A DNA stretch of 64,000 nt from Heliopora coerulea (lineage: Eukaryota; Cnidaria; Anthozoa; Scleralcyonacea; Helioporidae), in assembly GCA_030142905.1 (NCBI GenBank), contig JASJOG010000084.1, forward strand, positions 682,001 through 746,000. The letters are read 5' to 3'. The notes under the pieces are model-generated. The model was not told where the DNA came from. It searched no databases and was given only the letters and a program-made list of their open reading frames with translations. Position 1 is the first letter of the stretch. Each line of letters opens with the position of its first letter. Positions 21,968 to 62,672 of the stretch are shown one piece after another. The translations under genes were made by a program, and so were the position numbers.

Positions 21968-24900
21968 CTACTTTTGCTGTCCACGTTTCGTGAACAACAG
22001 CAGTAGCAATGCAATCACCCTGAATCCAAAACCCATTGAAATCAAGGCAATGATACAAGTATTGAAACTATCTAGGTCATAATGGTTATCAATCTGAACC
22101 CGACTGATAATATCACTCAATACTTCTGACGTTTCGTGGGCCTCGATCTCGAAGATCGCCTCGGCTACCCATCGTGAAAATGATAAATTATAAAACGCCG
22201 TGGCAATCACAGTGTCGTCCAGTTTGCATAATTCTGGTGAACCACCTGTAGTATGAAAAAGAGAAAAAAGTCATGAGGAGATGGTAAAAGATCTACAGCG
22301 TCCAGCCACCTAACGGTCTCGAATTCTTGATATGTCAAGTTTCGCAGGTAGGTACTTGAATATTTGACATTGATGTCGTTAGGATAACTTGCAGTATATT
22401 AATCTATCAATGTGATTTGTGGTCAGATTATCTTGTTATTCTTATCCCATTTCACAACATTTGATTGTGGAAGCATTCCCCGAAACCATGCGAAAGAAAA
22501 ACATTACCTGGTTCAAGAAACCAAAAAACCTGGAACAACTATAAGAACATTGAACCAACAAGAAACCTTTTATTTTCTTTCATCTAATCTTGTTGAGAAC
22601 TGTATCAGAAGAAATGGTAATTTTTGTAAGTTGCTTTCATCGAGGAGTTAACGTCCTCTTTGGTATGGATGACCAAATGTAGGTTTTGAAAACTGAACTT
22701 AATTCCTGAGAACTAAAACTGGTTTTATGTTGAACATGTAAATTAATAATACACATGCTTAACAGGGAATATAAACATACCATGTATTCCGTGGTCATTC
22801 CTACCTGATAACAAAGCCATTATAACCACAGTTATAATTGCGGCCATCTGAGCATTCCTTGGCGTCATTATCAACGACAAAGCATAACCCAGGCCCGAGA
22901 GGTAAAACCATGCACACAAGAACACCAAATAGTGTAGACTAAACGGAGCTTAAGAGAAAAATAAACAGTCAAAGATAAGGAAACTAGTTAATAGAGAACA
23001 GGTAAGCGATTGCCTTCACGCATGTATATTTGCTTGCATTTGTGTTCGCGTGTCTGTGTTTGACCTTCTGGGTTTACGTTTGCGCGTTCGTTTGGCCTTT
23101 AATAAAGTACCTTTATTTATACTGGATATCCCCATCAGCTACCTGCGCTGTTCTCCCTAGAGGTCGAGTAAGGACCACCCCTCACGGGTCCAGTGTTACC
23201 ACAGGAGGAAACTGGAGTAGCCGGAGAAAACCTGCGATGTTTGGTAAAGTCAAACTGGAAAACATCTTCTCACATGTGACAAAGGTAACTTTAATCAGAT
23301 AACTGCACGGAGCCAGGATCAAACCCTAGTCACAATGGTGAGAGACACGTGCACTACCACTGTGCAGCCAGCACTTCCCTCCTCTGTGTTTATATTTATG
23401 TTTGTGCATCTGCGTTTGTGATCGTGATTCAGTTTGAGTATTTGAGTCTGTTCGGATAAGTCTGCATTCGTTTTTCCTTCCGTAACGGTGTTCGTGTTAA
23501 AGTTCGTGTCCGGGTTCGTTTCCGTGCTCATTTTCGGGTCCGGGTCCTTTTCCACGTCCGTGTTTGTGTTTGATTTTGCGTCTGTATTCGCGTTCGTTTC
23601 TATGCTTGTTCGATATTTGTGTCGGCGTCTCTGCCAGTGTTTGTATGTTTTACCCATCGAACTCTAAAAAGACTGGAACGAGACCTGCAAACTGTATTTT
23701 GAAGCCAACATGAAGGCTGACATGTAGGTCAATTTGCAGGTCATCCCAGTCCCCTACGCGATAAAACACGCAACCCATTGTGAAAAAAATTTAACCTAAA
23801 TTTCGGATTTTTTGACAGTTTTCTTTTTTTGTCCTAAGTAAGTGGAGGACAATGTCGGTAGGACTGCATATTTGTCAGAATTGACTGTCATTGAAAAGTA
23901 AAAGTTCAATACAACTTTTTCCCACACGTGTTTTTGACCTACATGGCTGCCCCCATGTCGGCGTCATTCAATCATGAGGCCTGGTACAACGTGATATCGT
24001 TTTAGTTTTTTTGGAGTTCAGTGGTTTTGCCTTGTGTGTCTATGTAAATCCCTGTATCTATGTCTGTACGTGCTTTGAACGTATTCTTTACATTTTTGCG
24101 TAGAGTTGCGCTTGAATTTATATCTCGCTAAAAGACTTGTCAATAAAACCCTCCGTATGTCTTCACTTACCAAGAAATGCAGCCAGGCTGTAGTATATGC
24201 TCAAGTAAATACCAGGAGAGACCAGCAGGATAGGGATGTAGGCCAGATTCACAGCAAGGAAATAACTGACACGATTAATGCCGGATGCACTTTCCCTGAA
24301 AAATTAATATATGAAAAAAAAAAAATTTAAGCATCTCCCTCCTTTGCCAACTGAATAAAGTTTAAGAATGGGAGGTTAACAGAGCATGCAATGAGCAACG
24401 AATGACGAAAAAAAGCCACCATCGACCTTTTTCCTTAATAAAGAGAATCAAAATCAAATCAAACATAGACTTTTCCTTCTATTACCTCCAAAAGACAACT
24501 CTACGGTGGCCAAAACTCCTTAAAGCTGCAACAACGCCAACTAGGCCGACAGTAATATTACCAAATACGGTAGATTCTGGCACATTATGAATTTCAACCT
24601 ACAAGATAATGACAATAGATATAATTTACCTCCAAAACACAACTCTGTTCAGCCCAAAGCACCGTACAGCAGCGGAAATAGCAGCTAAGCCAACTATGAT
24701 GTTGCCGAGTACTGTAGTTTCATGAACATCATAAATAAACACCTAAAATGCAAGAAAGTGGTCGTTGCTAAGCATTGAAATTGCAAGGAATGAAGTGGAT
24801 TTAAATTCATTACTAGTGGAGAGTTGTTCATGATTGGCGGCTGTTTCTAAGAGATGGCTATTTGTAAACGATGGCTGTTAATAAGAACTTTTTGTTTACG

Positions 24901-27900
24901 AGAAGTAATGCGTGTTCGAATCCCGCTCAAGCTAACTTTTCTAGCTGACTTTCGTAGTGTAGGTTTATCATGAAATATTTTATTGTTCATACGATATGGT
25001 TGTTTACAAGAAATAGTGGTTATGATGGGCTTGTTTGTTTCATGGGACCTTTAGTAGTGCATGGGACCATTAGTAGTGCAAGCTAGCTCCGTGTCTTATT
25101 CAGGGTGACACTTGTCTGGAACAAGAAGGAATCAGGTGGGCTGTATTTCCATATCATATATGAAAACGCATGTATATGGCTGTCATCTCGCAGAGTGGAG
25201 GGAGCTCCGTAAAAACCTGCAATATTAACCCTTCCCTATCAAAGAGGTCTCCCCTTGACGAGTAAAATTCGTCTGGCATTAGCCAAAGTAAAATGCAAAA
25301 CAACATTATAGCATTTACACTCGACCGTTAACAGTTAAGTTGGTAATTCTGAAGAAAGAAAATCTCGAGTGTCCAGATTCGCGAGGTCGCGCGTTCGATT
25401 TCCAGGCGGATGGTCCAAAGTTGCATTTTTCGCAACAGGTCCCGGCAGTGGCGTAGCGGAACTACTGAAGGCCCTTAGGAAATTTTCGTTCGGGGGCTCC
25501 CGTCGCCCCCTTAGCATAGACATATATTTCAAGACTTTAATCTCAGTTGTGTTTACAGAATCATCGGGGGGGCCCTTAGAGGTCGGGGGCCCTTAGGAGT
25601 TGCTCTAACCCTGACCATAGTCCGTTACGCCACTGGGTCCCGATTGGGTCTTAAAAATATCGAGACACTCGAGATTTTCCTCCTTCAGTAAAACATCAAA
25701 GACGGGTGTGGATCCAAAAGGGTTAACTATTTGTTTTGTGAGTTCGATCAAATAATTAGCACGCAAGAATTAAACGTTCTGGTTTCCGATTACCTCACGA
25801 AATAAGAGACCCAGAGCAGCACCAGCAATCAATGTAAGCGCTTGGTCAAGTAGCAACGTCTTTGCCATATGAAGCTGTAGCAGTAACTCTCTTTTCGTGA
25901 AGATCCACAGTTGTGTAAAGAACCCTGGACGAACGCTGTTCGGTTTCTGGGTGCTAGAAGGAATGGTGGGAGGAGGCACGTTTTCTATATAATAGGGGTT
26001 TAAAATTTTTAAAAGTTGTAAAAGTGGTTTACGAGTAGTGACAGAAGAGTTTTAAACGTTAAAACAGGTTAAAAATTCTAAAAGTGATATCTGCTACATT
26101 CCCACTTGCAGGCTTGTTTATATGCATTAATGTGTGTAAACGAACGTACAACAAACGTTGGATAAATAGCCATAGGCATGCCTGCGCTCTTGCGTGCACT
26201 ATACAAGCATCAGCATCTATTGGTAATTTTTGCTTGCATACACATCAAGACTTCTTTCCCCTCAAACCCTTAATGGAGGACGCACACCGTAGTTGCCCAA
26301 GCACTTTTGCCACCTTATAAAAAATCAACTATTACTTAGCCTTGACGAGTGAACCTGATGTACACCGTTACCTTGGCGTTCCACTGTCAGGGGTTGTGCC
26401 TCCTTCACGTTTAGTAGCAGACTACTGGGCCTACTGCTTGTGGGCGTCGCTTCTTCAACGGGTGTCTGATGTTTTTCCCATTCTTCAAAAAGGTCAGTGT
26501 AATAATTCCTTTCACACTTTACCGATCCCGCGATCACATCCATGTAGAAATCAGCGGGGTTCATGTAAGATGGCAGTGGGTAACCAATGCTAGCGAAGTA
26601 CGGCTCGGCATTTTCAACCGAGCCCGAATAAACTGTGCGACCCCCTCGGCCAAGGAGCAATACTTTATCAAACATTTCTATAACAAGAAAGATTCTGTTT
26701 ATTTTCTTTATCCACAGATCCATCAATCTGTCCATCCTTTCATCCATCCTGCCACTTGATTTCTGCGGATTTACTTTTTTTGTACTCATCACACATTTCC
26801 CTCTCTCCTTTCACCCTTCATCTTCTTTTTTAACCATCTATTTTTCTCACCAACTCACCAACCCACTGACATACGTGGCCACTCTTTCCCTATTCATTTT
26901 TTTCTCTTCTCCCTCCCCTCATCTCCTTTCATGCCTTCCATCCTTTATGCCAACTCTTCCACCCTCTGTCCCTTGTCTGACTTTCCTCTCACTCACATGG
27001 ATGGACAGACGCACGGACGGACTCACTCATACGTGTAAGCGCGCACGCAAGGACTCACTCATACGCGCGAGGGCGCACGCACGACGGCATTCATTCACCT
27101 ATTCACCCACTCACACACCTACACACCCACACAACTACGCTCACTCACCTACACACCCACTCAACTACACATCCACACAGCCACCCATTCACCAACCGAC
27201 CATCAACCCTTCCAACTCATACTGCACTCTCTCAGCAACTCTCTTCCTCACTTGCTCACTCACTGACTCCCTCCACCACATACCTACCCACCCACCCATT
27301 CATTCACTCACTCCTGTTCCACATTCTTATTGCCTTGATTCAAACCTTACTTAATATTTCGTATCTTGGTTGATGAATCACACACAGCACGGTCAAATTT
27401 CCTTTGGACGCCACTTCGTTTAACGCTGTGACCACAGCAAGACTTGACGAACTATCAAGGCCCCTGGAGGACAAAGTACAAGAGGTAAGACCCAAGGAAG
27501 TAACACGCATCCCGCGGTTAATGCAATGACTGCATAATAAGTGTATGTTCGCAGCAACTACCCGGAATTCCTTACACGTGATCACCGCCTAATGACTGAA
27601 TGTTTGACGGAAGTCGCAGGTTTCTGCAGTGCGTGGTGAGTTCATCCTCGGGGAGCAACACGCAGGACTCTAGCATCCGATGACTACGGGATAAATGTGT
27701 GATAAGGGATATTAAAGTAGGAGAGTATAGTAAAGGATATTATTAAATCTCAGCAGATTATGATGTTTGTTTTTCCTCCTTTGACATTGATAGGCGTTTC
27801 GAACGATCGGAAAACGCGAATTTTAAATCTAAAGAGACTATGTAATAAACAGTATACTGGAAATCCATCAACAGAGCCTTGGATAGTAAATTTTGTAATT

Positions 27901-30474
27901 TGGTTAGTAAAACTTCTGTCCGCCAACCCGAGTGGTTAATCATCCAGAAAAATTAAATTCGAGCCCTGAAATAGTAGTGTAATGTAATCCAACCATATTT
28001 GAGCGTTCATATAAACTAAACAGCCAAGAAATATTAAAGAATAGTTAATGAATCCAGTCTCAATATAAACCACCCGAACATTTTGAAGTTAGAGTCCAGT
28101 TAGCTCATCACTTTGTTTAGAAAATTTTTTCTCTAACAAGAAGCGCACGAGTGAAAGAAATCCATGACGCACTACTCATGTTCAGTAAACATTTACTTAC
28201 GTCGTTGGTTCATCTAGGAACAAAATGGTTGGATCCGCAACCAGCTCCATGCCAATATTTACGCGCCGTCGTTGACCTCCAGAAATACCTCGAGTTTCCT
28301 AGAATTTTCAAAATTTCTTAGAAATATTGATGCATACCAGTATATAAAGACTCGAGGAGACGATTTGTCCGTTAAACTTACCTCATTGCCGATTGATGTG
28401 TTGGCAACGTGACGGATTCCCAAGAGACTGAGGACCTTGGAAGACGAATGAATATATTAGAAGAGTTCACAACAGCAAAACGAGGGAGTAGGGTGGAGGA
28501 GATTATAGAGCAAGGTAGAGTGTAGAGCGTAGGATGTGGAACGATACAGTAAGTTAAGGTAGAGGAAGGAAGGAAGGAAGAAAGGAAGAAAGGAAGGAGG
28601 GAGGGAAGGAAGGAAGGAAGGAAGGAAGGAGGGAAGGAGGGAAGGAGGGAAGGAGGGAAGGAGGGAGGGAAGGAGGGAAGGAGGGAAGGAGGGAGGGAAG
28701 GAGGGAAGGAAGGAAGGAAGGAAGGAGGGAGGGAAGGAGGGAAGGAAAGAAGGAAGGAAGGAAAGGGGGAAGGAAGGAAGGAAGGAAAGAAGGAAGTAGG
28801 GAAGGAAGGAAGGAAGGAAGGAGGGAGGGAAGGAAGGAAGGAAGGAAGGAAGGAAGGAAGGAAGGAAGGAGGGAATGAAGGAAGGAAGGAAGGAAGGAGG
28901 GAAGGAGGGAAGGAAGATTTTATTTCACACTTTTTTTTATTAAATTATTTACATGTTTACACATCTAAGTAGCATTTAAAGAATAATTAATAAAGAATGA
29001 AGTCTGCATTTTGAGGGGAGTCTATAGTTAGAGTAGGGGAGATGACTGGGTAGTCAGGACTGAGAAGGACTATAAGAGGGAGAGAGAGAAAGGACAATGT
29101 AGGACAAGGCAAGTAAAGGTCAGGATATATGAAAGAAAAACAGAGGGCAGGGATGAGTATTTCGGGGAGGGCCAGGAGGTGAACAGGACAGTAAGGAGTG
29201 GTAAAAACAGACGGAGAGAAAAGAGAGTGTTAAGTAAAGAAAGCAATGTGAAAGGAAGGAAACGAAAAGATGCGGCAAAAAGATATAGTGGTACACGGTG
29301 AAGCAGATTGGATAGAGTTGTGAAATGAAAGGACGGTAAAGACAGAGAACCTAGGGAAGAAAATGGTAAGGCGAGAAAGGGAAAGAATGAATAGGAGCTA
29401 GAATAGAAGGGAAAAGGAATGAAAGAGAAGGAAACAGATGACGAGGGGAAGGAAATACCATGAAGGACAGGAAACGCGAGCGCATGCTTAGGCAGGGTGG
29501 AGGCAAGCGAGGTATGCGCGGGGGACCGGAGATTAGTAAGGCAAGGTTAATTTACTCTGTGTTACAAGTGGAGTATTGCAAAGAACTCATGACAAGATAG
29601 TTCAGACATATAACGTGACAATGAAAGACAAAGCAAAGAAATACAAGGAAAATAGTTGGCAATGACGTGTATATCAAAATAAAAAAGGAGAAAAACTAAA
29701 AATACCTTATTCACCATCTTTGCGTAATATTTTTGGTCGCTTTGAGGTGGAAGACGTAAGAGGGCGCTGTAGTAAAGAACTTCGCAGACTGTGAGTGAAC
29801 GATGCATGATATCCTCCTGTATTTCGAAGACGATACAATAATATTACACAAAAAAACGAACGCAAAGATTACGTTACAGGGCGACATTTGACGCCGTAGT
29901 GTCGCATGAAATATTAACACGGCTAACATGCAACTTGCATTTTCCACATGCATCAACGAATGATGCCATCTTTAACGCAACAATCTTCCTTAAACCATTA
30001 CATTGAAGACCGCACAGGTGGGAAAAAATTATTGATTTAACCAGGCTCACCTGAGGAACAAACCCAGTGACGCTTTTATAGTCCTGAATACCTTTCACTT
30101 CTCTACCATTGATTTTTATAGTCCCTCCACATTCCTAGAAAGAATAAAATGACAGAAAATCAGTATGTCAATATATCAGTATATCTATGTCTTTGCATAC
30201 TTATATGTGTATATACTTACATGTATAACGACACATATGTACTGTATACCTATCTGTATACGTAAATGTACATGTGCATATATATATATTTATATATAAG
30301 TAAATACAGAAGACAAAATTTTGCTATCGCTACTCTGAGTTTCACGCGCTCAGGCGATCATCAGGCGACAGCAAAATTTTGTCTTCTGTATTTACTTATT
30401 CGCTCTCCCAGTAACGGTATTGAGCGCTCTATATTTTCATTCCAACGCTGTAACCTTCGTGGTACTTACCATCG

Positions 30475-30511
<37 letters not shown>

Positions 30512-31859
30512 AATATAGACAAATATATCTTGAGTGAAACCATATACAGGCAGAGTGCTCGATACCGAAGTAGAGCAAAATATGAGAGAAGTGAGAGACA
30601 AAACTCGGATTACTTCATAGAACTTTTTAATGACGACAAATTTGTCGTGATTAAAAAGTTCTATGAAGTAATCCGAGTTTTGTCTCTCACTTCTCTCATA
30701 TATATATTTATATATATATTTTTAAAATTCATTAAAAATTCATGAGGAAATAACATAAGAAAATCATAAGCGTGTCGGATCTTTGTATGAAATAAAGATA
30801 CATGTGTCTTTATATGTGAAGAAGTTTAATTTTTTCGGCTTACGAAAGATAAACTTCCAAACTTTCTTCACGAATTAACGTATTAAGAGGTGAATTTCAT
30901 AAGACATTTAAAAAACTCGCAGTACGTGCTTTATCGGGTCTAAAGCACTCGGGTATCGCCTCGTGTTTTAAATCCCGAGAAATCACTCCTGCTCGGTTTT
31001 TAAAAATTACATACAAAAAACCAAGCAGGAGTGCTTTATCGGTATTTAAAACACGAGGCGATAGCCAAATGTTTTAGACCCGATAAAGCACGTACTGCGA
31101 GTTTTTTAAATGTCTTATGAAATTCACCACCTAATACGCTAATTCGCGAAGAAAGTTTGGAAATTTACCTTTCGTAAGCCGAAAAAATTGAACTTCTTCT
31201 TCTCGTATAAAGGCACATGTATCTTTATCACATATATAGATCTGACACAGTTGTGATTTTCCTTTGTATCTTCCTCATGAATTTTTAATGATGTCCCAAA
31301 GGGTGTCCCAAAAAAATGTATACACACTTTGAATGATTATAATAACAATGTTTATTAAGACATATCTAAGTTTTATGACCCAAGTTAAAGAAGACAAGTG
31401 TAGAATTTTTTGAGTTATCGCAGGTGTTAGAACTGATGACCGTTGCGGTCCAGGCACTGCTGATAACGCGGACAGATGGAATTGCAAACATTACGAATTA
31501 TGATCATTTTATTTGGTATTTGGGTGCATTCTCTTTCAATTGCTGCTCTCAACTCATTGATTGTTACAGGTTTTGTGCTACAAACCTTGTCTTTGACGTA
31601 TCCCTATAAAAAAAGGTCCACAGGCGTGAGGTCTGGTGAACGTGGGGGAATTCAATGCTATATCTTCACCCAATCCATCTGTGTGGCAGATTTTCGTAAG
31701 ATAGGCTCTCATATCACGATGGTAGTGGGGAGGTACTCCATTTTGCTGGAAATAAAACTCCTCATCTCCAAGTTGCTCACGAATGCTTGGCATTCGAAAG
31801 AAAGTTTGTTATAGTGAGTTATAATCACTCAAAGTGTGTATACATTTTTTTGGGACACC

Positions 31860-31909
<50 letters not shown>

Positions 31910-34900
31910 GCATGTGCAAATGCATATGTGTATATATGTATATGTATATGTATATTTATATGTATATGTAGATGTAGATGTGTATGAACCACCCACCAAC
32001 ATAATTTTTTCCCCACCAAGCATACATAGCACACCGCTGCACCCAATGTAGTTTCCATGTGATGGTTTATGTCATACTCTATTATAAAATAAGTTTGATG
32101 TCTCTCATTTGTCCTTGGAAGGATAGAGAGAGAGAGAGAGAGAATTGTCCAATCAGAGTATTACTTGATATGCCTTCCCCCTTCTCTTTTTCATAAAGTC
32201 GAACAGACAACATCTGGCTTCCACATCAGACACATACCCCATAGAACGCTTTTCCACACAAAACATTTAAAAATGTGGTTTTGCCAGCTCCTGATGGACC
32301 CAGCACAGCAGTCACTTCTCCAGCACTTATGTCTCCTGTTACACCTTGAAGAAGGACTTTGCCTTTGTTTGCACCCTGTGAAAGTTTACAGAAAAACAAC
32401 TGAGCTATAATAAGTGGTGTAATACATAGAGAAGAAATCATGATACAAAAGATCAGGTTTTCAAATGCCAATGGAGCTGTCAGTTGGGAAAAATATAAAA
32501 CAAAACACAATTCACATAATAAAACCTCTACTTCTTATTTCTTTTGAATTTCCATCATGAATTATCAATGAGTTTGAGAACAACATGCAAAGGAATGTTG
32601 ACAAGTTCTAAAAGATGTGGGATGTGAAAGATAGCAACAGATTATACATGGAATGAGGAGTGATTAGTTAATGATGAGATATTGATTTAATTGTCAGACA
32701 TGAGAGTACAGCACCTTAACAAGAATAAAATTAGCTGTATTAGATATAGACAGTAACATAAGAAATAACGAGGAGCATAGAATGATAAAACAAACAATGT
32801 GAAAAGTTTTCAGGAAGAAGTCTATGATGTATTGGAATACAGAATATGGATTCAGCTAGCACTAACGACTTTAATGTAGCTCAAATAATGTGAAAAGAAA
32901 CTGTAAGGCAAGATAAGAAAGTACAAGAACAGCATGGAAAATAAATCAAAACTAAAATCTTACTGAAGTTAGTTTGAGGCTCAGTTTTTCAAAGCTGATA
33001 TTATAGGAGATCTTTTTAGGCTCCAGTTCCAGCTCTCCTCTTTTGCTGAAATTGTCTAATCGCTGTAAAACCAAATGCATCCCACCGGAAAGGGAAAACT
33101 TTTGACTCAGCTTACGATTCCCAGTTGCTCTCCGCTTGTAGAGGTTGAAATAAAAATTAAAACAGTGTCTGTTGTTGAAGTAAAGGATAATTAATACAAA
33201 CGTGAACAGCAAGCAAGCATTGACAATGAGACCAACAACCAGAGTATGGGGAGATGTTTCACCTTCATCACAAGGAGATATAACCTGCAGAATAAACAAC
33301 AAAAAACAGAATTACCTCATCTCTCTCTGGCTTGGTTTCAACTTACATTATGTGGTTCTTGCAGTCACTATGATCTTTCACAGCTGAATTTGGGTATTCT
33401 TAAGGTCACAGAAACCATGATAACTGCCTCCAACACTTACAATCACCACATGCACTGTCACCACCACAAACGCCCCCAAAACAACTATTGGCAAACAACC
33501 CACTACTTAGAAACCCAACCATCACCACCATCATACCTACACTCCACACAAGGACAACTACTGCCACTGTAGCACCACTTTATTGTGCCACCAACAATAT
33601 CACCACCTTCACTGCTACCACAACCTTGGCAACTCACTGTCATAGGGGTGCTACCAGCACCAAGGCAACCTCCACCATTGCAAAATTATCCCACAACTGA
33701 GGCAGAAGCTATGATGGCAATGGTGTCATTTATAACTGATATAATCACAACCACTGACATGACCACAACATTGAAACAACCACAGGGCCACCACAACTAC
33801 CACAGACATAACCACCACTCCTGTCACACCCAGCAACGTAGCATCAGTTGCACAATCACCACTTCCACCTCAAAGGCAATACACTGCCATCAATACTATC
33901 CCCCCAGTCAATCCTCATCAAAATCATCAAATACTTACAGGACACTTCACTGGTCTGTGGCTTCCTTCTCTGCAAAAATGCCCAGATGGACATTTGAACA
34001 TGGTTGTCGTGTTTGGACAATAATGACCTGGTTGACAGCGAGCAGGATAGGATTGCCCCGCACAGGAGAGTTTGTTAGTGGATTCAATTAAGATTGGAGC
34101 ATTGTTTGAGGGAAGACAGCACTTCTGGAAACTACTGCAATTTCCAGTACTCTAATTTTTCAAAAACAGACAAAAAATGGTGGAAAGTTGTTGACATAAG
34201 CTAGTGATCCTAATATGCACATTCTCAAGCTATTCTCTCAGAAAAACTTTTCTGAGTCCCTTTTTCTGAGAGAACAGCTTGAGAGCGTGCATATTAAGAA
34301 CATTATAACTACCAAGCTTCTACAATTACATCATGAACTAGCGAGTTTATAACTGAGACACATATGCTGCATAGGCATTTTTAGCATGCTGCAGGTCAAA
34401 GGCTGGAAAAGATTAATGCTTAATTTTGACCAGTCAGGATCAGTCTATGAGAATCACCCTCCAGGTGATTAAAACGTGATTAAGAGTTCAGTAGAACCAT
34501 TCCTAAGACTTTTCAGAGGCTGTGTATTTAAATTTTTGTTTACATTGATTGTTGTCCAGATCTTTTCCAGCTAATGCAAACCATTTATATTTGCAGTTTT
34601 TATGGTGGATTTTCATGACTACCAAATCCCAACCAATACTTTGAACTTTTCCTCTTAGGGCAGAATGAAACTAGTGAAGCCATATAAAATCTTTGATTTT
34701 CAGTGGGCCATCAGAGCCCAGATTTAAAAATATCACACCCCATGTCCAGTGCTGAAAAAATATTTAATAAAATTGGAACTGTGTTTATGGTTTTGACTCA
34801 TAGTTGGGTTTTCAAGAGGCCTATTATAGGGTTAAATTTTGGTATGTGTATATCAGTAAATGTTTCTTGGATGACAAGCCAAGATGAAAAGCAAGAGTCA

Positions 34901-37872
34901 AATGGATGACTCACAAGTAACACTGCTTTGTTTCCCCTCTCTCTCTTACCCATGCCTTTCCTCTCTCTGTCTCTCTCCCCACTCCCTCTCCCTCTCCTTT
35001 CCCCTCTACCTTTCCCTCTCCCTTCTCCTTCTTCTCCTCTCTTCCCCACTTCCACCTCCATTCCCATCCTCTATTTTCACACCCCACTACCACTCCCCAC
35101 TCCCCACTTCCAATTCCCCACTCCCACTCCTTCCTCCTCTCTCTCTCCTTTCACTTACCTGCCCCTCCTAATTTCCTCCTTTTTTCCCCTCAATCTCTGT
35201 CTCTTTCTCTATCTCCCACCCTTCCATGTTCTCTCTGAAAATTATTATACACCAACTGACACACCATGCTTCATGCTTTGTTCTAAACTATCTTCCAAAA
35301 AAATTCCACACTGACCCTTATAATTGTCATCAGTGTGTACTCTTACCAGTTGATTTTGAATACAATAAGCTCCAGATGGGCAAGGCTTCAGACAAACAAC
35401 ATTTGCTTCACAAAAGTATCCTGCAAACAGAACAACCAAGATGACACATGAACAGTTTTTCAAAGCATGTCAAGACTAATCTCTTGACACTCTTTAAATT
35501 TTTACTAATAGTCAAAAAAAAATGTTCCAACCTGCTTAAAAATGCTTTTTCATCAATTTATTTTACGGGTTAACTTGCATTTTTAACTTAGAAAGAAAAC
35601 TGTATCGAGCCACCTTAATGACCTGTGGGTTTTGGCGGGAATATTCTTGGAGACAAGCAAACTAAATAAAGACAAGTTCTTCGGTCAAAAAGACAAGTTT
35701 TGCGAAGTATTTCTCACAACAAAATGCTCTGGAGTATCAGCAATGCCTCTCTTGGAGGGTTTTAGTTAAACGATTTATTGATGCAATGTAAATTTACAGT
35801 TGCCCGCCGATGGAAAAATCCAAGCAAGTAAGCGGGAAACTGCTACCTCGAAAGACGAGTTAAAAATGGCAAAAACAAACGACACAGAGAAGCAACAGCC
35901 TTGCAATAAATTCCTTACTGGCTTCGTTTGTTAGGTACGTACCAGTTACTTGTTTGCCTACAGTATTTCCTCAAGAAGCGGGCTCTTTTGTCACTTAGAA
36001 CCAACATGTAGACTACTATTGTCATGTTTTTTATGTTTGTTCAAGTTCGTTCACATACCTCCGGGACATGGCAAGGTGTTCCGTCCATTTGTAGAATAAA
36101 AACCACCAAGACATGCGCTTAGGTTCCACGGAGAACTGCATGATGAGGTTTGAAATTGCATTCTTTCCACATCCGTGGAGTTCTCGCCATCTGCACAAAC
36201 TGGAATACCGGAACAACAATATCGCGCGTAGTCACGTGGGCAACAATACCCGGTAGGAACTACTTGGGTTGCTAAGAATAGAAATCAGGATTTAAATAAT
36301 TCAAGATTTCCTTGCCGCACCAATTCAGAACGGTAAGAGTTTTATTTTTAAGACGATCAAGGTTTTCCTGTCCAGATATTTTACGTTATGACAATTATCT
36401 CTTTAACCAAAGCAGAACGATGGTATAAAATATTTATCCTTAGCAATACCATGGTTGGAAAGACCATTAAAAAAGTTAAAGAAAGTGTATGTCTATAGTG
36501 GATACCCTTACCAGCTAGCTAAGCTGTTCTCGCTAGAAGTCCAGTAAGGACCACCCCGAATGGGTCTAGTGTTACTACAGGAGGAAATCGGAGTACCAGG
36601 AGAAAACCTCTCATGCTTGGTAGAGTCAAACTGGACAACACTCTTGTGACCAAGGTAACTTTAATCAGACAACTACACGGAGGACGGAATCGAACCCAAG
36701 TCACTGTGAGAAACACGTGCTCTACCACTGTGCCACCAGTATCCCTACACACCTATTATTCGAGGTAGTTCGGTTAGATATTTATAAAGATGTTCATGAA
36801 TCATACAATACCTGAAGTTGGAATACGCAAATAAACGTAGAGTAAACTGAAAGACGTACAAATTTAGAAAATTGGGAATTGTCGTTCAATTTTATCGTGC
36901 ATCGAACCCAGGGGTCTGTGCACATTTTTGAATTAAATAAGACCACTTTAGTTCGCTTAACTTTCTGCTGGAATTTCGTGAAATAAATATAAATCTCGCT
37001 TATCTTGTGTTCATTGTCACATCACCGGTTTAATAACACTTGGCTATAGAAAATTTATTTTCACTAAATATATACCTCTGAAAAGCGGTCAACAGTATGT
37101 CTAACCAAACATTTATTTCGTTGGTATTTTGTCCAAGAGACTGCCTGAAACCCCGTACTTACGACCAAGTTTTCCTTAATTTTTCCTTGCCAAGGACCCT
37201 TGTTCAAACTTTAAAAGTTACCGGTCATGCCAGCTTTTCAATAAGATGACTTGTCAAGGAATAACTTGCCAGTCAGTGTGGTACACACAGGAGCAAATTA
37301 AACTTGTCAAAGAAAACTTGGCCGTTTTTGCGTCTTTTCTACTGCGCTTGATTACTCGCGTAGTAGTTGCGCTTCCACTGGTTCACTCGTATACACTTGG
37401 GACTGTATCTTTCGGTTTTATAATTTTATTTAGAGCTCTCACATTTACAAAATGAAGACCAGAACAACACTAACTACAGTAAAACCCATCGTGTCTAGTT
37501 GGCGTCATCCGAAAGTTGCCACTTAACATTGGCAATAGCTAACTACATAAAGGGCTATTATGTTACATGCATAAAGACTTATCTGTTATCGCTAAATTAC
37601 AAGCAATAAAGTCAATTCCAAATAACAATTTCATAAAACAAATACAAAATATCTCACAGCCATGTGCTCGGGACCTTACATTCACTCTACCCAAACAATT
37701 TTGTTTAAAGGTACAGCGAAGTTCAGTGGTCACTTAGTGGGTTGTTCACTTATTTGTGTGACGGTTAAGAAGAGTCAATCGACGCATTAACTGACGTCGA
37801 ACCCATAGTTATTTGGCATTTTAGACCAGAAAGGGGGATCTCAACGGATGTGATGGCGTGTGCTCGCTTGTG

Positions 37873-62480: not shown

Positions 62481-62553
62481 AGCCCCAGACGGGGATCGAA
62501 CCCGCAACCTTCTGATGACCGATTAGACGCTCTAACCATTGAGCTACCGAGAC
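62481..62553 (-). tRNA. tRNA-like sequence, anticodon position GGT (Thr), atypical
   Basis: 73 nt fold as a cloverleaf: acceptor GTCTCGG/CTGGGGC (several G-U pairs), T8 A9, D arm GCTC-AATGGTTA-GAGC, anticodon arm TCTAA-TCGGTCA-TCAGA, variable AGGTT, T arm GCGGG-TTCGATC-CCCGT. Loop position 33 is C, not the near-universal U, and the anticodon stem has an A-C mismatch. It may be a tRNA pseudogene or the head of a SINE. The pol III B box GGTTCGATCCC is intact. Confidence 0.5.
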
Positions 62554-62599: not shown

Positions 62600-62672
62600 G
62601 TCTCGGTAGCTCAATGGTTAGAGCGTCTAACCGGTCATCAGAAGGTTGCGGGTTCGATCCCCGTCTGGGGCT
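62600..62672 (+). tRNA. tRNA-like sequence, inverted partner, anticodon position GGT (Thr), atypical
   Basis: Same cloverleaf as its partner on the other strand, with loop CCGGTCA instead of TCGGTCA; this is the only difference. C33 and the A-C stem mismatch are shared, so these oddities predate the inversion-duplication. No T-rich pol III terminator follows directly. Confidence 0.5.

Follow-up and report, generated by a model that had tools for sequence, protein, structure and literature searches.

Two adjacent 113-nt exons in a predicted ABCG half-transporter gene, termed A and B, are best explained as a mutually exclusive pair held apart by steric hindrance across an intron of 31 nt. We give this reading, a prediction rather than a measurement, a probability of about 0.7. 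One internal exon of the gene has been duplicated in tandem, and each mature RNA would carry one or the other version of a membrane helix. Coordinates and alignment confirm the exon lengths, the short intron, the 23 of 38 identical residues and the shared RVVFWR ends that the initial annotation had reported for this pair.

Results

Architecture of the ABCG gene

The gene lies within the window, i.e. the whole 64,000-nt stretch of Heliopora coerulea DNA analysed here (Table 1). Reading the minus strand and assembling the exons gives GT-AG borders at every intron and a product of 857 residues, in which a Cys-rich N-terminal part is followed by ABC_tran and ABC2_membrane_7. The start exon is absent from this model: the first modelled exon starts at 36271, two bases ahead of a codon boundary, and a start codon or any signal-peptide exon was not found at 36272 and upstream on the minus strand. 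Pfam places PF00005 at residues 282-435, PF19055 (ABC2_membrane_7) at 569-853 and PF01061 (ABC2_membrane) at 598-799 of the product. Judged by these matches, the order of a nucleotide-binding domain (NBD) followed by an ABC2-type membrane domain is that of an ABCG half-transporter.

Among solved half-transporters, plant ABCG25 and ABCG16 and human ABCG2 are closest in sequence, with PDB matches over the NBD and the membrane domain to 8i38 (E 1.4e-63), 8wtm (5e-62) and 6eti (5e-59). Scores slightly above those of the half-transporters are reached by fungal PDR full transporters, each of which is matched in two stretches. PDB searches with the membrane domain alone returned no match, while the longer query did. 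When bacterial/archaeal and viral contigs were scanned for the membrane domain, 58 and 3 pattern matches were obtained, with no relative among them.

Table 1. Positions of the gene, the exon pair and the neighbouring exons and introns in the window.
Feature	Position	Strand	Remarks
ABCG half-transporter gene as modelled	21968..36271	-	17 exons counting A and B; start-codon exon not found
Upstream shared exon	25794-25984	-	ends ...LLFRE at a codon boundary; TM1 region by ABCG25 alignment
Intron preceding exon A, 1051 nt	24743..25793	-	
Exon A, first alternative, 113 nt	24630-24742	-	37 residues and split Arg; acceptor TTTCTTGCATTTTAG, donor GAG|GTAAAT
Intron separating A and B, 31 nt	24599-24629	-	GT...AG; in-frame TAA after VVFWR if retained
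Exon B, second alternative, 113 nt	24486-24598	-	37 residues and split Arg; acceptor ATTATCTTGTAG, donor GAG|GTAATA
Intron following exon B, 190 nt	24296..24485	-	
Downstream shared exon	24171-24295	-	opens ESASGIN after the split Arg codon; aligned from ABCG25 E469 on
Last coding exon	21968..22245	-	ends ...TKRGQQK stop; from exon assembly

Besides the one separating A and B, the gene has 15 introns of 83-2103 nt. The intron between exons 32238-32375 and 30051-30134 holds a transposon-like remnant at 31300-31861, whose 43-nt terminal inverted repeats are 98% complementary with 476 nt between the arms; by eye, its minus strand resembles a broken mariner-type transposase. Two near-perfect palindromes share this intron, one at 30818-31199 (184-nt arms, 92%, 14-nt loop) and one at 30580-30701 (61-nt arms, 98%, no loop), both flanked by TA-repeat stretches and by eye foldback or MITE-like. 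The intron before exon A contains a 30-nt inverted repeat (25349-25378 and 25659-25688, 87% complementary, 280 nt apart), probably a small repeat element. A 14-nt stretch at the donor of B (24473-24486) is 86% complementary to part of the upstream exon (25950-25963), which we take for chance. Two similar stretches on the minus strand, 36500-36760 and 23100-23420, the first with 'GTGGCACAGTGGTAGAGCACGTG...GGGTTCGATTCC...', appear by eye to be copies of a tRNA-derived SINE. Elsewhere the window contains divergent tRNA genes 46 nt apart (62481-62553 on the minus and 62600-62672 on the plus strand; Rfam RF00005), and a C2H2 zinc-finger ORF at 969-2228 on the plus strand (Pfam PF00096), to which an open segment from about 2685 on the same strand is similar (43% over 79 residues).

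Exons A and B as copies of one exon

Besides the 23 shared residues (split Arg counted), the exons have 74 of 113 nucleotides in common. The similarity is detected by tblastn against the 64-kb window with E 3.7e-10, and by blastp with E 5e-12 when 1277 stop-to-stop segments of at least 30 codons from all six frames were compared (E up to 1e-6, with low-complexity filtering, for pairs on one strand separated by 60-2000 nt). The sole other pair in this comparison, which is blind to duplicates sitting within one segment, joins a zinc-finger segment from 968 with one from 2685. At this level of similarity A and B are one tandem exon duplication and not a chance resemblance.

Differences fall on codon positions 1, 2 and 3 in 12, 8 and 19 cases (37 codons), 39 of 113 nt in total. 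An assembly or chance artefact is unlikely given this divergence with its third-position excess, since a fresh duplication or a misassembly would be near-identical. A third copy, or another duplicated exon of the gene, was not found by tblastn of the exon peptides against the window (best E 0.19 beyond self and A/B); that search leaves out exon 25794-25984, which the six-frame segment comparison covers. Nor does the 31-nt intron look like a shortened copy of a flank, its similarity not exceeding that of shuffled sequences (255 and 253 of 500 at or above).

In both exons the first base opens a codon and the last two bases begin an Arg codon; after joining, each terminates in RVVFWR. With A alone or with B alone, the frame is open from the first placed exon through all 857 residues and contains only the terminal stop. 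Assembly with both exons introduces 15 stops and assembly with neither 8, which bears out the earlier proposal that the frame is lost either way. Retention of the 31-nt intron keeps the frame (113+31=144), but as TAA directly follows VVFWR it would truncate the protein too. Loss of the frame would thus act as a second barrier: both exons, neither exon or a retained intron would lead to a premature stop, and full-length protein would arise from A alone or B alone only. The pair also combines similar length (113 and 113 nt), compatible GT-AG splice sites in the same frame, and homology; these are the features from which PMC3228551 predicts mutually exclusive exons.

Splice sites and the distance between the exons

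We scored splice sites with a small matrix built from the ABCG gene itself, using leave-one-out for the other sites, whose scores are slightly reduced by this procedure. The donors of A (7.9) and B (9.1) fall within the range of the 14 other donors (3.7-11.8), and the acceptors of A (10.8) and B (7.4) within that of the 15 other acceptors (-1.1 to 14.3). A thus has the stronger acceptor and B the stronger donor. The description of each exon as having its own acceptor and donor and joining cleanly between LLFRE and ESASGIN is borne out by these GT-AG sites and by the open frames. A route through U2/U12 incompatibility was rejected: when judged by eye, the donors of the upstream exon (GTAATC), of A (GTAAAT) and of B (GTAATA) do not match the U12 donor consensus.

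The 31-nt intron has no internal AG before its acceptor, and the nearest AG upstream of the acceptor of B is the last AG of A itself, 31 nt away. By AG scanning, the branch point of B should therefore lie within this intron, where any branch site is less than 31 nt from the donor of A. The 31-nt intron lacks a strict yUnAy motif. The motif is a weak test in this gene because the acceptor of A likewise lacks it in its 25-nt AG-free stretch, the nearest one lying 48 nt upstream.

A donor-to-branch distance below about 50 nt is the published criterion for steric exclusion. Efficient assembly is reported to need a minimum of about 50 nt, and with one adenoviral RNA it was lost altogether at 35 nt (PMC6692369); the same threshold of about 50 nt has been applied to OGDH (PMC7969005) and in a human survey of mutually exclusive exons (PMC5740500). 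For ultrashort human introns, lengths of 43-65 nt are cited (PMC8363638). The suggestion that the intron is too short for a spliceosome holds in that 31 nt is below each of these published figures; they are, however, human or in-vitro values (PMC6692369, PMC8363638), and spliceosomal limits, mostly mammalian or in vitro as published, may not be those of this host. In the proposed mechanism U1 on the donor of A and U2 on the branch point of B could not co-assemble across 31 nt, so that A would not be joined to B, and each exon would be used in a share of the RNA. Such a block would have to operate in this species as it does elsewhere; PMC6071210 gives the steric route for clusters of only two exons. 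The distance would account for A not being joined to B, but not for which of the two is chosen.

Constraint on the two copies and alternative explanations

Between A and B, dN is lower than dS by NG86 (0.29 and 1.83) and by LWL85 (0.33 and 1.27), with dS near saturation; the maximum-likelihood dS of 3.5 is saturated and not usable, and YN00 returned no value. These ratios bear on the alternative that deserves most attention, a tandem duplication in which one exon is live, either B with its higher family score or A with its stronger acceptor, and the other is a drifting relic that still looks like an exon. We regard this as unlikely, though well worth weighing. Against a relic, neither exon has a stop or an indel, and all four splice sites are intact. 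When the observed substitutions were redistributed over A, the observed identity was reached in 24 of 20000 trials, and a stop arose in 57% of trials. In a forward codon simulation (3000 runs for each case, starting from A or from B, scored for the observed identity without a stop), this outcome had P 0.001-0.0017 when a single neutral copy received all the changes and 0.017-0.020 if the neutral copy took 70% of the hits. It rose to 0.07-0.11 for one neutral copy with equal hits, and to about 0.5 and about 0.18 with both copies constrained at omega 0.15 and 0.3. Constraint on both copies therefore fits the simulated sequences best, with a P of up to 0.11 for a single relaxed copy. A and B both retain transmembrane hydropathy (1.93 and 1.66); neutral decay reproduced hydropathy, substitution type and the lack of new polar residues jointly in 1.3% of the runs with A and 3% of those with B, a combination that we chose ourselves and in which no single property falls below 9%. 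The family score is neutral on this point: both exons pass the PF19055 cutoff of 22.7 bits (B 130.0, A 115.9), and the 14 bits by which A trails B are inside the range of randomly decayed B, as 9 of 20 decayed copies with 15 differences score at or above A, so that the score does not discriminate for constraint on A.

Exclusive use might also be imposed by competing RNA pairings between docking and selector sites instead of by distance. Such pairings are known for Dscam and MRP clusters (PMC6071210) and could act on top of the distance, but we consider them very improbable as the cause here. Five intron-intron duplex tests yielded no significant pairing, with 15, 36, 6, 73 and 71 of 100 shuffles equalling or exceeding the stability of the native duplex, and the local fold of 24440-24800 (-81.6) is no stabler than its shuffled versions (mean -86.0); a 31-nt intron moreover needs no extra device against joint inclusion. 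We give still less credence to the idea that the exons are not exclusive at all, and that joining them or keeping the 31-nt intron yields a truncated or frameshifted RNA serving, through decay, as an off switch for the gene. Since joint inclusion, skipping and retention all produce premature stops, this could work in principle. An off switch would, however, have no need of a second copy in which the family sequence is preserved, and 31 nt is shorter than the ultrashort human introns (PMC8363638).

Consequences for transmembrane helix 2

In the alignment of the B isoform to ABCG25, the exon runs from within the first extracellular loop across TM2 and as far as R468, ahead of the coupling helix; the residues of A were placed through their ungapped match to B. 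By this alignment the alternative exon encodes transmembrane helix 2, which specifies the membrane helix and loop of the earlier description. The sole differences between the A and B proteins would lie in the last part of the first extracellular loop and in TM2, which in relatives forms part of the lining of the substrate cavity.

The substrate interface of ABCG25 is described as consisting mainly of TM2 and TM5a, with F442, I445, V449 and F453 of TM2 contacting abscisic acid and F457 joining them in the gate layers (PMC10581904); F453 is termed the cytoplasmic gate (PMC12117657). At F442, I445, V449, F453 and F457, A and B carry L/F, I/I, L/L, S/V and R/R, and thus differ at two of the four abscisic-acid contacts (F442 and F453). 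The differences show no enrichment on the pore face (2 of 5 ABCG25 positions, P 0.69; helical moment P 0.47). Of the ABCG25 mutants, F453A and V449A are described as affecting transport little, the I445 alanine mutant is singled out as severely impaired and F442A goes unmentioned in the text. Both the mild mutants and the identity of A and B at I445 count against a strong effect.

In an ungapped mapping to human ABCG2, 5 of 8 cavity positions would differ between A and B (F431, T435, F439, S440 and V442; P 0.11). At T435, a substrate-selecting residue, A would have Ile and B Thr. The list of cavity positions is taken from PMC12250437. ABCG25 and ABCG2 are reported to work as dimers of two half-transporters (PMC10581904, PMC12117657, PMC12250437), and if the present protein dimerises likewise, AA, AB and BB pumps would be possible, with isoforms that might handle substrates differently. 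Tentatively, and with more doubt than confidence, we propose that one ABCG gene yields two pumps differing only in the cavity-lining TM2 and the preceding loop, that the 31-nt switch makes joint inclusion physically impossible, and that AA, AB and BB provide three cavities whose substrate choice varies by cell type or condition.

Discussion

If both isoforms are made, the gene would amount to a natural experiment on how an ABCG pump selects its substrates, in which a single pore helix is swapped while all else stays constant. With an intron so short for a steric pair, it would also be a clean test of the lower distance limit of the spliceosome outside the usual model species. Exon-level switching would then extend to a second ABC transporter subfamily beside MRP, which belongs to ABCC, another subfamily than ABCG.

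Steric exclusion between two exons, frame-locked exons, short introns in mutually exclusive clusters and tandem exon arrays in MRP are already known; as the MRP arrays are in print, the general idea is not new. The initial annotation knew of no described case in this transporter type. That statement stands for ABCG itself, for which mutually exclusive exons were absent from the matches listed in the open-access literature, including cnidarian ABCG work, but not for ABC transporters at large, given the published MRP arrays (PMC6071210).

In its parts the pair resembles several known systems. The gene is like Arabidopsis ABCG25 and ABCG16 and human ABCG2 in that the half-transporter match covers both the NBD and the membrane domain; a second TM2 exon is not known to have been described for these three. 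alpha-Tropomyosin is said to have a two-exon mutually exclusive cluster with a donor-to-branch distance that is too short. In the human survey, potential steric interference applies to 57 of 629 clusters (9%), and 377 clusters (60%) contain exons whose length is not divisible by three (PMC5740500). Short introns recur in the exon 6 cluster of beetle Dscam1, where more than 45% are under 50 bp (PMC8042237); unlike A and B, this is a many-exon cluster that relies on docking/selector pairing and does not encode a transporter. MRP shares with our gene the duplicated, mutually exclusive exons of an ABC transporter gene, for which several independent duplications across phyla are reported (PMC6071210). 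It differs in that intronic stem structures guide the choice in Hymenoptera and that, in PMC6071210, it is not described as a two-exon steric pair. Adjacent alternative exons with a donor-to-branch distance below about 50 nt are also found in exons 4a and 4b of OGDH (PMC7969005). For A and B, exclusivity is predicted. In human OGDH the donor is followed by branch points at 25-41 nt (PMC7969005), and the whole intron between A and B spans 31 nt.
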